Assembly: GCA_040218145.1 (NCBI GenBank)
Contig: JAVJQK010000021.1
Span: 62,001 to 126,000 of the forward strand
DNA: 64,000 nucleotides
Reading direction: 5' to 3'
DNA from: Sandaracinaceae bacterium
GTDB taxonomy: Bacteria; Myxococcota_A; Polyangia; Polyangiales; Sandaracinaceae
Positions 42,785 through 48,317 of the stretch are shown piece by piece. The notes below the pieces were generated by a model. It searched no databases. It was not told the origin of the DNA and worked only from the letters and a program-made list of their open reading frames with translations. A program made the position numbers and the translations under genes. The first letter of the stretch is position 1. Each line of letters starts with the position of its first letter.

Positions 42785-44650
42785 GTGCCCGAGACCGTCC
42801 TGAGCCTCTTCGCCGAGCAGGTGGCGCGCGCGCCGCGCCGGACCGCTCTGCGTTATCGATCCGGTGGCATCTGGCGCGGGCACACGTGGGCCGACTGGCA
42901 GAGCACGAGCGCGGCGGTGGCGGCCGCGCTCGCGGACTGCGGCGTCCAGCCCGGCGATCGCGTGGCCATCCTCGCGCGCACCTCCGTGCGCTGGGTGATG
43001 GCGGACCTCGGCGTCCTGATGTGCGGCGCTGTGACGGTGCCCATCTATCCGACGCTCCGCGCCGACGCGATCGGCGAGATCCTGCGAGACAGCGGGGCCA
43101 CGGTGATCTTCGCCGAGGATCCCGTGCAGCTGGCCAAGGCGGTCGACGAAGAGGCCGGGGAGCTGCCCGGGCTCCAGCGCGCCGTCGTCTTCGAGCGTGT
43201 GGCCCGGCTCGATCGCCCCGACGAGGAGGGGCGGCTCGACGTCACCATCGAAGACGCCGACAGCCGCGGCCGCCCCGTGCTCTCCTGGGAGATGCTCCTC
43301 GAGCGAGGCGTCTTGACGCGTGAGGCGGCCCCGGAGCTCCTCGCACAGCGCTCCGCCACCGTCACCCCCGAGTCGCTCGCGGCCATCTACTACACGTCGG
43401 GCACGAGCGGTGAGCCCAAGGGCGTTCAGATCACGCACGACGCGTTCGTCTTCGAGACCGCGCAGATCTGCCGCGTCATGCCGGTCAGCGCGAGCGACGA
43501 GCAGCTCCTCTTCCTCCCGCTGGCGCACATCGTCGCCAAGCTCACCGTCATGCTGCAGCTGCGCGTCGGCTTCGTGACCAGCTTCGCCAGCTCCATCGAG
43601 GACGCGGCCGAGGAGTGCGGCGAGGTGCGCCCGACCTTCATCGCGGGGGTGCCGCGCGTCTTCGAGAAGATCCAGGAGGCCATCGAGGCGAGCCCGAAGA
43701 TCCAGGGCGACATCCAGCAGCGCGTCTTCGACTGGGCGCTCGGCGTCGGCCGTCGCGTCAGCGCGCTTCGCCAGGAGGGGCGCGAGCCGGGCAGCCTGCT
43801 CGCCGTGCAGCACCGCTCCGCCCACCGCCTGGTCTTCAATCGCGTGAAGCAGCGGCTCGGCGGGCGTCTGCGCTTCATGCTGAGCGGCGCCGCGCCCCTC
43901 GCGAAGTCCACGGCGGAGCTGTTCCACGCCTTCGATCTCCTCATCCTCGAGGGCTACGGGCTGACCGAGACGACCGGGGCGTCGACCCTCAACACCGTCG
44001 ACGCGTACCGCTTCGGCACGGTCGGTCGCCCGCTCCCTGGCGTCGAGGTGAAGCTGGCCGAGGACGGCGAGATCCTGATCCGGGGCCGGAGCGTCACCGC
44101 CGGCTACTGGTGCAGCGCCGACCCTGCGGCGTTCACCGACGACGGCTACTTCCGCACGGGCGACGTCGGCGTTTTCGACACGGACGGTTACCTGACGGTC
44201 ACGGACCGCAAGAAGGACATCATCGTCACCGCGGGCGGCAAGAACGTCGCCCCCGCGCGCGTCGAGCTTCGCCTGACGCGGAGCCCTTACATCGACCGCG
44301 CCGTCGTCGTCGGCGACCGCCGCAAGTACCTCGTCGCGTTGCTCGAGGTCGACCGAGAGGCGATCTTTCGCTGGGCCGATCAACACGGCCTCGGAGGCGA
44401 TCGCTCCGTCCTTCTCCGCCACCCGCGCGTCTGGGCGCTCCTCTCGACCGAGGTCGAGCGCGCGAACGAGAAGCTCGCGAGCTTCGAGCAGATCAAGCGC
44501 TTCGAGCTGCTCCCGGGTGAGCTGACGCAAGCGAGCGGCGCGCTGACGCCGACCGGCAAGGTCAAGAGACGTTTCGTCGAGGAGAAGTACGCGGACCTGG
44601 TCGACGTGCTCTACGAGGGCAACACGGCTGAGCTCGAAGATCTTTCCTAG
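42785..44650 (+). CDS. AMP-dependent long-chain acyl-CoA synthetase
   Basis: The GTG start (MPETVLSLFAEQVAR) gives a 621-residue protein. The ATP/AMP-binding motif is YYTSGTSGEPKGVQ. The core motifs GYGLTETTGAST and YFRTGDVGVFDTDGYLTVTDRKKDII are complete, with the C-terminal lysine region APARVELRL and a LTPTGKVKRR tail. The arrangement matches FadD15-type long-chain fatty acid-CoA ligases, which make acyl-CoA from fatty acid, ATP and CoA. The chain-length preference cannot be read from the sequence. It follows the envelope cluster by 27 nt and may be co-transcribed with it. Two hairpin-rich repeats follow the stop. Confidence 0.93.
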   Translation: MPETVLSLFAEQVARAPRRTALRYRSGGIWRGHTWADWQSTSAAVAAALADCGVQPGDRVAILARTSVRWVMADLGVLMCGAVTVPIYPTLRADAIGEILRDSGATVIFAEDPVQLAKAVDEEAGELPGLQRAVVFERVARLDRPDEEGRLDVTIEDADSRGRPVLSWEMLLERGVLTREAAPELLAQRSATVTPESLAAIYYTSGTSGEPKGVQITHDAFVFETAQICRVMPVSASDEQLLFLPLAHIVAKLTVMLQLRVGFVTSFASSIEDAAEECGEVRPTFIAGVPRVFEKIQEAIEASPKIQGDIQQRVFDWALGVGRRVSALRQEGREPGSLLAVQHRSAHRLVFNRVKQRLGGRLRFMLSGAAPLAKSTAELFHAFDLLILEGYGLTETTGASTLNTVDAYRFGTVGRPLPGVEVKLAEDGEILIRGRSVTAGYWCSADPAAFTDDGYFRTGDVGVFDTDGYLTVTDRKKDIIVTAGGKNVAPARVELRLTRSPYIDRAVVVGDRRKYLVALLEVDREAIFRWADQHGLGGDRSVLLRHPRVWALLSTEVERANEKLASFEQIKRFELLPGELTQASGALTPTGKVKRRFVEEKYADLVDVLYEGNTAELEDLS

Positions 44651-44737
44651 TTGGAGGGCCTGAACGCAGGCCCTCCCCCCATGGGGCGAAGCGCCCATGG
44701 GGCCCCCCTCCCGACTACGGCGATTCGCGCGCTCCGC
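44651..44737. repeat. Hairpin repeat, first copy (partner at 44823-44909)
   Basis: The 87-bp unit begins one base after the synthetase stop. It holds GGAGGGCCTG-AACG-CAGGCCCTCC (44653-44676), a perfect 10-bp stem with a four-base loop. A second hairpin, 44677-44702, has a CCCCATGGG arm. The second copy differs at three positions, two of which form a compensatory base pair. Confidence 0.85.
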
Positions 44738-44822
44738 GCGCTCGGTCGCCGAGCCCCCCGCGGGGCGCTGGGGCCCCCGCGGCTCGCGCTTTCGCTTCGC
44801 GAAAGCTGGCCGCCTTGTCTGC

Positions 44823-44909
44823 TTGGAGGGCCTGAACGCAGGCCCTCCCCCCATTGGGCAAAGCGCCAATGGGGCCCCCCTCCCGACTACGGCGATTCGC
44901 GCGCTCCGC
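44823..44909. repeat. Hairpin repeat, second copy
   Basis: The sequence is 84 of 87 identical to the copy at 44651. The first hairpin (44825-44848) is unchanged. The second hairpin (44849-44874) has T-A where the first copy has G-C. A GCGAAAGCTGGCCGCC motif lies between the copies and again after this one. Confidence 0.85.
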
Positions 44910-45044
44910 GAAAGCTGGCCGCCTTTCCCGGTGTACGCGGCCGGTAATTGTGCGCGGCGGCGGATTCCTGGGCGAGCTCGACGGGAGCCTCCAACGGCAG
45001 ACGCAGCGCGGTGGCTGGTCCGATCGCCGATGCGCGTCGCGGAT

Positions 45045-45650
45045 CCGGCGACGGGCGCGGAGGCGGTCGCGGAGGCAGTCGCGGAGGCGGTCGCGGAGAC
45101 GGTCGCGGAGGCGGAGGCGGAGGCGGTCGCGGAGGAGGAGGCGGTCGCGGAGGAGGAGGCGGTCGCGGAGGAGGAGGCGGTCGCGGATCCGGCGACGGGC
45201 GCGGAGGCGGTCGCGGAGGCAGTCGCGGAGGCGGTCGCGGAGGCGGTCGCGGAGGCGGTCGCGGAGGCGGTCGCGGAGGCGGTCGCGGAGGCGGTCGCGG
45301 AGGCGGTCGCGGAGGCGGTCGCGGAGGCGGTCGGGAGGCGGTCGGGAGGCGGTCGGGAGGCGGTCGCGGATGCGATCGCGGAGGCGGTCGCGGAGGCGGT
45401 CGCGGAGGCGGTCGCGGATGCGGTCGCGGAAGCGGATGCGGTGGCGGATGCGGTGGCGGATGCGGTGGCGGATGCGGTGGCGGATGCGGTGGCGGATGCG
45501 GTGGCGGATGCGGTGGCGGATGCGGGGGCGGATGCGGTGGCGGATGCGGTCGCGGAGGCGGTGGCGGATGCGGTGGGCGGATGCGGGGGCGGATGCGGTG
45601 GCGGATGCGGTCGCGGAGGCGGTCGCGGATGCGGTCGCGGACACGGCGGC
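45045..45650. repeat. Hexamer-phased tandem array, dominant 12-bp units
   Basis: The left two thirds repeat GGCGGTCGCGGA and the right third GGCGGATGCGGT. Read on the - strand nearly every hexamer is NCCGNN, as in the array at 870-1280. The + strand is G-rich with many GG tracts. Three consecutive units near 45330-45360 have lost one base each, and an extra G lies near 45575. The frame therefore changes (Ala-Glu-Ala-Val becomes Gly-Gly-Cys-Gly), which argues against translation. Confidence 0.85.
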
Positions 45651-45740: not shown

Positions 45741-48317
45741 GTGAGTACCCGGGAGGAGGGTCGGGAGCTCTGGCTCCGTGGGCGTCTCGACGAGGCGGCC
45801 GAGGTGTTGGACGCGTTGATCGCGGCGGCGGAGCCCGCTGAGGCGGCGCGGCTGACGCGAGATCTGGCGCGCGTCGAGATGGCGCGTGAGTCCCCACGTA
45901 AGGCGCTCGAGCTCTTCGAGCGTGCCCTGGCCCACGCGGGCGAGGCCGACGCGCCGCGGCAGGCCGCGACGATCCACGCGCGTCGCGCGGAGGCGCGTGC
46001 CTGGTTGGGCCAGTCGCCGGAGGCCTCGGACGAGGCGCGCAGCGTCCTCGAGGATCGCGCGGCGCCGGCCGAGGCGCGGTCGGTGGCGCGGCGCACGCTG
46101 GGCCGGGTCGCGGCGACCGGCGGCGATGTGGAGGAGGCGCTGCGGCGCTTCGACGAGGCGATCGGGGAGCTTCGCGAGAGCGAAGACGCGGCCGAGCCGC
46201 TCGCCCTCGCCTACCTCGACGCCGCGGAGGCGCTGCTCGACCGCGACGGTCCGGTCGACAGCTCGGCCGCGGCGGCGCGGCTCGCCGAAGCCCGCGATCA
46301 CATCGAGGGGGGTGGGCTCGATCGTCTGCGACCGCGTCTGGGCGTCCTGCTCGCGCGCGCCCGCGGCGCGAACGGCGACACGGACGGCGCGGTCCAGGAG
46401 CTGGAGCGGCTCGTCTCCGAGCTGCGCAGCGGACCCCGCGACGTCTCGTGGCAGGCCCTCGCCGCGCTCGCGCGGCTCCACGAGCAGCGCGGAGCCGAGT
46501 TCCTCGCCCGAAAGAGCTTCGAGCAGGCGGTCGAGGTCCTCGAGGCGCTGGCCACGGCCCTCGCCCGCGAGCATCGGGAGAGCTTCTGGAACGACGCTCG
46601 GCGTCAGTACGTCCGACGGCGCGCGGCCGGGGAAGGCGACCGACGACCACGCCCTCAGGTCGCGGGCCCGTTCGCGGACGGGCGGCTCGCGCGCCTGCTC
46701 GAGATCCTCAAGCGACTCGCGAGTGAGACGGACGTCGATCGCGTGCTCGAGCGCATCACGGACTGCGCCATCGAGCTCAGCGGAGCCGAGCGCGGCTTCG
46801 TGCTCCTCACGGACGAGGACGACGTGCTGCTGCCGCACACCGTGCGCGACGTGGCGAACCCGGACGACCCGCACGTGGCCTTCAGCCGGTCGATCGCGGA
46901 GGCGGTGCTCATCGACGGCGAGCCCATCCTGACCGTCGACGCGCGCAGCGACATGCGACTCAGCGAGTACCTCTCGGTGCACAAGCTGATGCTCAAGTCC
47001 GTCGCGTGCCTGCCCATCCGCGGCCGCTCCGGCACCGTCGGCGTGCTCTACCTGGAGCATCGCATGCGGCGTGGTCGCTTCGGCGAGGCCGATCTCGACC
47101 TGTTGCTGGCGTTCGCCGACCAGGCCGCGATCGCGCTCGAGAACGCGCGCCTCCTCGCGAGCCTGGACACGCGCCGGGAGGAGCTCGAGCGGGCCAACGA
47201 GGAGCTCGGCGCGGCGAAGGAGGAGATCGAGCGGCTCCTCGACGCCAGGACGGTCGAGCTCGAGGAGGCGAAGACCGAGCTCGTCCGGGCCCGCGAGGCC
47301 CTGCGCGCCGCGAACGACCGCCACGGGATCGTCGGGCGCAGCGAGCGGATGCGGCGCGTCTTCGCCGTCATCGACCGCGTGCGGGACGCCGAGGTCCCCG
47401 TCGTCATCCACGGCGAGAGCGGCACGGGCAAGGAGCTGATCGCCCGGGCCATCCACTTCAGCGGGCGGCGCTCGCGCGAGTCGTTCGTCGCGCTGAACTG
47501 CGCCGCCATCCCCGAGGCGCTGCTCGAGAGCGAGCTCTTCGGGCACGTCCGGGGCGCGTTCACCGGGGCCGACCGTGACCGCGAGGGCGTGATCGTGAAG
47601 TCGTCGGGCGGGACGCTCTTCCTCGACGAGGTGGGCGACATGCCGGCGAAGATGCAGGTCGATCTCCTCCGCGTCCTACAGGATCGCAAGGTTCGTCCGG
47701 TCGGGGGCGACCACGAGGTGGAGGTCGACATCCGCGTGATCGCCGCGAGCAACAAGTCGCTGGAGCGGCTCGTCGAGCACGGCGAGTTCCGGGAAGACCT
47801 CTTCTATCGACTCAACGTCGTGCAAGTGAAGCTGCCGCCTCTCCGGGAGCGCGTGGAGGACATTCCGCTGCTGTGCGAGCATTTCCTGGCCGCGTTCGCC
47901 GAGCGCGACGACGCGGCTCCGAAGCGCATCTCTCGCGAGGCCATCCGGCGCATCGCGAGTCACCCGCTGCCGGGCAACGTTCGCCAGCTCGAGCACCTGC
48001 TGCTGAACGCCTGGGTGATGTCGGAGGGTGACGTCATCGACCTCGACGACCTCGCGCTCGCCGACGACGGGACGAGCCTCCCCGTGCCGCCGCGTCTCGA
48101 GAAGGCGCTCTCCGCGAGCGCGCACTCGCGGCCGCCGACGTCGGGCCCCGCCGACGCGCCGCCCCCGTCGAGCGTCGAGGAGTTCAAGGACACGGAGAAG
48201 CGGCGCATCCTCGAGGCGCTCGAAGCCGAGAGCTGGAACCGCGTCCGCGCCGCGAAGGCCCTCGGCATGGCGCGCCGCACGTTCTACCGGCGGCTCAAGG
48301 AGTACGACATCCTGTAG
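45741..48317 (+). CDS. Sigma-54-dependent activator with TPR and GAF domains
   Basis: The GTG start gives an 858-residue protein. The frame is also open far upstream through the tandem array, but only as low-complexity sequence. TPR-like helices fill residues ~1-290. A GAF domain lies at ~335-475. A coiled coil joins it at ~475-525. The AAA+ domain has Walker A GESGTGKE (558-565), GAFTGA (605-610, contact with sigma-54) and LFLDEVGDMP. A Fis-type helix-turn-helix ends the protein (ALEAESWNRVRAAKALGMARRTFYRRL). There is no response-regulator receiver, so the input is probably a small molecule bound by GAF or a protein bound by the TPR. The target promoters are unknown. Confidence 0.92.
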   Translation: MSTREEGRELWLRGRLDEAAEVLDALIAAAEPAEAARLTRDLARVEMARESPRKALELFERALAHAGEADAPRQAATIHARRAEARAWLGQSPEASDEARSVLEDRAAPAEARSVARRTLGRVAATGGDVEEALRRFDEAIGELRESEDAAEPLALAYLDAAEALLDRDGPVDSSAAAARLAEARDHIEGGGLDRLRPRLGVLLARARGANGDTDGAVQELERLVSELRSGPRDVSWQALAALARLHEQRGAEFLARKSFEQAVEVLEALATALAREHRESFWNDARRQYVRRRAAGEGDRRPRPQVAGPFADGRLARLLEILKRLASETDVDRVLERITDCAIELSGAERGFVLLTDEDDVLLPHTVRDVANPDDPHVAFSRSIAEAVLIDGEPILTVDARSDMRLSEYLSVHKLMLKSVACLPIRGRSGTVGVLYLEHRMRRGRFGEADLDLLLAFADQAAIALENARLLASLDTRREELERANEELGAAKEEIERLLDARTVELEEAKTELVRAREALRAANDRHGIVGRSERMRRVFAVIDRVRDAEVPVVIHGESGTGKELIARAIHFSGRRSRESFVALNCAAIPEALLESELFGHVRGAFTGADRDREGVIVKSSGGTLFLDEVGDMPAKMQVDLLRVLQDRKVRPVGGDHEVEVDIRVIAASNKSLERLVEHGEFREDLFYRLNVVQVKLPPLRERVEDIPLLCEHFLAAFAERDDAAPKRISREAIRRIASHPLPGNVRQLEHLLLNAWVMSEGDVIDLDDLALADDGTSLPVPPRLEKALSASAHSRPPTSGPADAPPPSSVEEFKDTEKRRILEALEAESWNRVRAAKALGMARRTFYRRLKEYDIL

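Follow-up and report, generated by a model that had tools for sequence, protein, structure and literature searches.

Small, apparently mobile hairpin elements directly behind genes across a class of Myxococcota

Paired Changes in Two Repeats behind an Acyl-CoA Synthetase Gene

Why should two neighboring copies of a short repeat differ by changes that pair with each other? In the window (the whole stretch of 64,000 nucleotides of Sandaracinaceae DNA that we analyzed), 87-bp copies at 44651–44737 and 44823–44909, 172 bp from start to start, show exactly three mismatches. One of these (44688 G/44860 A) lies in the loop of a second hairpin, H2. The others (44683 G/44855 T and 44696 C/44868 A) face each other in the H2 stem, where the G-C pair 44683–44696 of one copy corresponds to a T-A pair, 44855–44868, in the other, a compensatory change. 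The first hairpin, H1 (44653–44676), which has a 10-bp stem and an AACG loop, does not differ between the copies. The original prediction had described these three differences, the shared first stem and the neighboring genes, and direct comparison bears out all of them. The repeats lie directly 3′ of the TAG stop codon (44648–44650) of an acyl-CoA synthetase gene (AMP-binding; ORF 42785–44650, Pfam PF00501, E 1e-76), and a 12-mer array and a GAF/sigma-54 activator gene (45741–48317) follow downstream.

The 87-bp segment is only the beginning of a 162-bp unit with five hairpins (44653–44814), as delimited by the family alignment and the fold of a family member (L023). A leader of two nucleotides, TT (44651–44652), separates the stop codon from H1; in other copies the leader is longer and T-rich (TTTCTTGTT, GYTTGC). 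H1 is followed by H2 (44677–44702; a CCCCAT..ATGGGG stem with a GC-GAA-GC tip), by a C-rich spacer (44703–44717) that is unpaired in both RNA and DNA folds and whose CCCCCC is conserved class-wide, by the two-part stem of H3 (44718–44751), by H4 (44753–44773), whose left arm is partly degenerate in the window copy, and by H5 (44779–44813). A T-rich linker, TTGTCTGCTT (44815–44824), leads to a second unit of the same type (44825–44923, 99 nt), which lacks an internal segment and retains H1, H2, the spacer, part of H3 and the end of H5. The synthetase gene, its stop codon, the leader, both units and the linker are all on the + strand.

The 12-mer tandem array (45053–45640) is long and GC-rich (GCGGTCGCGGAG/GCGGATGCGGTG), with the repeats on one side and the sigma-54 activator gene on the other. 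Comparable 12-mer tracts stand behind element copies at L026 and L061 and also occur in L126, as though a second repeat type trails the element.

Maintenance of the Hairpins

The repeat region has 80 BLAST matches in the 11-Mb genome from which the window comes (G000), and a full unit of this family measures about 162 nt and comprises H1–H5. A typical unit folds far better than its dinucleotide shuffles, with z −5.4 for RNA and z −6.2 for DNA. Among 50 distinct full units, 95.3% of pair cells are paired, these cells not being independent events since the copies are homogenized. Twelve pairs vary on both sides, a number reached in 0/500 shuffles and set against 1–4 in slid controls. By hairpin, pairing amounts to 100% of cells in H1 (three two-sided varying pairs), 99.6% in H2, 85.8% in H3 (five two-sided varying pairs), 97.5% in H4 for the family (the alignment shows the window copy deviating) and 96.2% in H5, where UA changes to GC or CG. 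Every variable H1 pair is altered on both sides, one-sided G-U changes occur in neither H1 nor H2, and the H2 pair that distinguishes the window copies (44683–44696) is UA in 32 units and GC in 18. Covariation among genomic copies, which the original prediction had offered as its check, is therefore found, and the pattern it had named as contrary, stems broken as often as kept, is not.

An inert local tandem duplication with two coincidentally paired differences might suit the window copies, which differ at only three positions, but that reading is refuted. The paired change is not a chance event, because the 50 units hold 12 two-sided pairs and near-complete pairing of H1 and H2; nor is the repeat pattern as a whole, given the 80 genomic matches, a fold that beats shuffles and covariation across copies with consistent two-sided changes.

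The hairpins are maintained. The original prediction ascribed this to selection for the folded form in RNA or single-stranded DNA; the maintenance stands, and selection is just one of two readings of it, because copies exchange modules and arm-to-arm correction of a palindrome mimics the same pattern. At orthologous sites in a metagenome-assembled genome of the same species (G183), the site is retained and H1, H2 or H3 modules are swapped, so that few mutational events stand behind many cells.

The kinds of mispairing in H1 bear on the level at which it is maintained. Distinct sequences from seven genomes give 964 H1 pair cells, of which 944 are Watson-Crick, 6 G-U, 4 A-C and 10 other. RNA selection should tolerate G-U above A-C, and since this excess is absent, the comparison, which involves few events, weakly favors maintenance at the DNA level (with the hairpin as a substrate, or through arm-to-arm correction) over RNA selection.

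Across copies the H2 tips (window 44687–44693) read GC-GAA-GC, GC-AAA-GC, GC-GGA-GC or GC-AGA-GC. They resemble d(GCGNAGC), a very stable DNA mini-hairpin. Another stem type, GAGGGGCTGTCCCAGCCCC, is found in the same species at one copy (L159, G183:C1:29430); its H2 has a GTGAA loop, and it is like the stems of G002 and G007.

A Shared Scaffold with Unrelated Stems

Relatives carry a scaffold, GGAGGG-[H1]-CCCTCC-CCCC-[H2]-GGGG-CCCCCC, with unrelated stems. We searched for it with the pattern GAGGGN{6,24}CCCTCCCCCCN{8,38}GGGGCCCCCC and used the reversed pattern as a control. The pattern is present in 14/184 genomes of the order and 18/318 genomes of the class, counts that include some singletons (e.g., in G096) that look like chance, and the reversed pattern had zero matches in the same searches of order and class genomes. 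The G/C tracts are conserved while the intervening stems change completely, other genera and families included. The two-hairpin core spans about 55 nt and the unit 95–165 nt, and a third hairpin, roughly GCGCGGGGCCCCAGCCCCGCTTGC, is common to G001, G006, G007 and G107. Pattern matches are most numerous in G034 (73). Covariance-model matches number 31 in G001, a single contig of 10,327,335 bp, and 67 in its sister genome G006, which comprises two contigs; both genomes are closed or nearly so. The family is one of small non-coding hairpin elements across a class of Myxococcota, and it is apparently mobile.

Rfam gave no relevant match for the window stretch at E up to 5 and no match over the element at gathering scores for other loci, and virus, plasmid and phage collections held no match to the element. 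In the literature on myxobacteria, subscription papers excepted, we found no description of the family. Four loci in G007 (L101, L102, L104 and L124) carry near-identical 150-nt copies with another leader (GGTTGCCAT); at least one of them, the copy at L124, lies ahead of a gene rather than behind one.

Placement behind Stop Codons and RNA 3′ Ends

The original prediction missed a dispersed mobile family that is linked to stop codons. Gene calls came from a simple codon model that we trained on the window, and contexts in the lower-GC genome G034 were read by eye. In G001, G006 and G004, the core of most copies starts 7–8 nt or 12–13 nt past the stop codon of a co-directional upstream gene, and 61/65 copies are sense-oriented behind a gene 3′ end, with 4 placed otherwise (P = 2e-14). 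Within G001 and G006, 42/47 copies lie at most 13 nt from the stop codon, against 11 expected if copies were spread evenly over the rest of the intergenic space (P = 2e-28). All three kinds of stop codon occur upstream of copies, and the gene downstream may be co-directional or convergent. A stop codon shortly upstream is frequent for elements in further families of the class, too.

Placement is looser in G000, where stop codons are mostly within 17 nt. Copies there also stand directly behind intrinsic terminators (L024, L029, L035, L041 and L042), tRNAs (L025 and L032) and the SRP RNA (L036), and others are found with no identified 3′ end upstream (e.g., L010, L014, L018, L021 and L040). At L020, 12 or more tRNA genes are densely clustered, with element copies on both strands.

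Empty Sites in a Sister Genome

We located the flanks of 14 G001 elements in G006 and aligned them. For 10 of these copies, coding homology in G006 passes through the native stop codon and no recognizable element follows (L180, both copies of L161, L191, L197, L201, L186, L184, L203 and L205, the downstream side aligning poorly in the last two). L199 and L195 are less clear, and at L170 and L182 the element is also in G006, with internal deletions. At the empty site of L201, convergent stop codons are just four bases apart. The post-stop sequence of the empty G006 alleles differs from site to site, from which it follows that the T-rich leader belongs to the element and not to its target. A T-tract as target site is rejected for G001, since the empty alleles have no leader. 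That so many sites are not shared between G001 and G006 argues for gains in G001, although some of the empty sites may instead be losses in G006.

These alleles bear on a reading that we hold to be doubtful: a functional 3′-UTR RNA element, selected for mRNA 3′-end stability, transcription end or termination tuning and spread by gene conversion only. It would account for the strict sense orientation and stop-codon distance and for the conserved folding, and in E. coli, REPs that lie no more than 15 nt from a stop codon have been reported to stall ribosomes (PMC12306157). Yet the element is missing at most orthologous genes of the sister genome and is carried by some tens of genes only, G-U pairs are not in excess, no U-tract follows the hairpins, and G000 copies are also found behind genes with their own terminators, tRNAs and the SRP RNA.

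Tandem Arrays

Copies occur singly or in same-orientation (head-to-tail) tandem arrays, with mixed orientation only in L012, L019 and L020. Short forms (H1 only, or H1–H2 plus linker) lie closest to the gene and H4–H5 fragments are distal. At three joints (L193, L213 and L021), a stretch of 10–12 nt from the local upstream flank recurs between units. Entry of a new copy at the edge facing the gene would have this effect, and so would duplication of the element together with its flank. Examples of the joint repeats at L192/L193, L213 and L021 are GCTCCGTTGGCG, TGAGTTTTCG and CTGAATCTTCTA. Bacterial MITEs resemble the element as small, non-autonomous, dispersed inserts, but we saw no terminal inverted repeats that bracket the element, and single copies are not clearly flanked by a target-site duplication, flank repeats being confined to tandem joints.

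Search for a Mobilizing Enzyme

REPs are linked to RAYTs (PMC2817692). A classical GTAG-type REP moved by a RAYT (a Y1 HUH transposase) would explain short palindromes in many copies, a 3′-end location and alternative complementary stem residues, as in REP families, which lie downstream of ORFs and show complementary stem variants (PMC3733652). Against it, the element has no GTAG or CGTC tag, consists of two hairpins and forms same-orientation tandems; moreover, the Y1 transposase (PF01797) is absent from three element-bearing genomes (G001, G002 and G006), and the Y1 transposase gene of G000 is not flanked by the element. We take this reading to be already largely refuted and very improbable. 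A RAYT link was rejected across eight genomes, where Y1_Tnp is neither consistently present nor adjacent to the element. One G004 Y1_Tnp gene has an element copy about 700 bp off, as chance allows.

An alternative that we think improbable is a retro-type element. Reverse transcription with template jumping (or terminator priming) would fuse the element RNA, by its 5′ end, with mRNAs, tRNAs and SRP RNA at their 3′ ends; recombination would then bring the cDNA into the genome. Group IIC introns prime at terminators and insert in sense orientation after terminator T-tracts; the element shares the sense insertion but has no ribozyme, reverse transcriptase or Rfam match. Most of what the element targets in G000 are RNA 3′ ends, its 5′ ends are precise, and the short forms nearest the gene retain only H1 or H1–H2, all of which agrees with such a route. 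However, RVT_1, searched in ten genomes, was absent from both G034 (73 pattern matches) and G004, many-copy genomes that are drafts of 96% completeness and could hide a gene, and the short forms, which retain the linker, can be internal deletions.

A 1788-nt gene flanked by the element at L211 was rejected as an autonomous copy; by sequence it is an ordinary secreted-protein-like ORF with no transposase features. Mobility by a RAYT or by a retro-type route lacks support across the family. A draft genome could conceal a gene, which is less of a concern for G001, with its single contig, and for G006, with two.

A REP-Like Element with Stricter Placement

The hairpin family is probably mobile, REP-like and non-autonomous. 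An enzyme provided in trans would recognize folded single-stranded DNA and put new copies at the 3′ ends of genes, where harm is small. Stems would remain complementary through the hairpin serving as substrate and through conversion that homogenizes copies and arms. By analogy with reports on E. coli REPs, a side effect in mRNA is conceivable, in which H1, 7–8 nt past the stop codon, might delay ribosomes at termination or shield the 3′ end. Against this account, the searches showed no Y1 transposase in G001, G002 and G006 and none beside the element in G000, single copies have no clear target-site duplication, and the stop-codon precision exceeds what tolerance of harmless sites would give. 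We regard as unlikely, though worth weighing, that the class-wide mobile hairpin family is inserted by machinery that is neither an HUH transposase nor a reverse transcriptase and that is aimed at stop codons or RNA 3′ ends. Movement would then be tied to the termination of translation or to the ends of transcripts.

The element resembles REPs and BIMEs (GTAG and CGTC families; E. coli and Pseudomonas) in that the repeats are short, palindromic and extragenic, number tens to hundreds, have lineage-specific sequence with alternative complementary stem residues, and lie mostly downstream of genes, in some cases at most 15 nt from the stop codon (PMC3733652, PMC12306157, PMC2817692). Like REPs, which are extragenic and mostly downstream of coding regions, the element lies behind gene 3′ ends (61/65 copies), but its stop-codon adjacency is far stricter. 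REPs have GTAG or CGTC at the palindrome end, whereas the element starts with GGAGGG inside the stem, after TTTCTTGTT or GYTTGC. A REP is a single 20–40 bp palindrome with an associated RAYT gene, in contrast to a double-hairpin core on a G/C-tract scaffold within a unit of 95–165 nt and no RAYT gene in G001, G002 and G006. G-T pairing is described as frequent in REP families (PMC3733652), whereas the element has little G-U pairing. BIMEs are regularly spaced units in alternating orientation, unlike the head-to-tail arrays seen here. Intrinsic terminators consist of a GC hairpin and then a T-tract; in the element a T-rich tract precedes H1 and a C-tract follows H2. The double-hairpin elements (GC clusters) of fungal mitochondria are GC-rich paired hairpins, mobile and with compensatory stem variation. 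By description they are like the element in those traits and differ in being mitochondrial.

These results exceed the original prediction in that they describe a mobile, stop-codon-abutting hairpin family that is class-wide in Myxococcota, for which targeting and an mRNA function are proposals. If the stop-codon adjacency stems from insertion, it would amount to a kind of integration specificity not described before, for which closed genomes supply natural empty and filled sites. If it stems from survival, dozens of natural with/without pairs would be at hand for the effect on expression of a strong hairpin 7–8 nt past a stop codon.

Element Copies at Assembly Breaks

Contigs of G000 and G183 often start or stop within the element (e.g., L012, L029, L030, L031, L044 and L048). 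In the presence/absence comparison of these two genomes, contigs end at the element and a single junction, at L053, is discordant; it joins two distant G000 contigs and may be a misassembly, or else a rearrangement. Since contig ends of both assemblies often lie inside the element, it breaks assemblies, and it accounts for many assembly breaks in these genomes.
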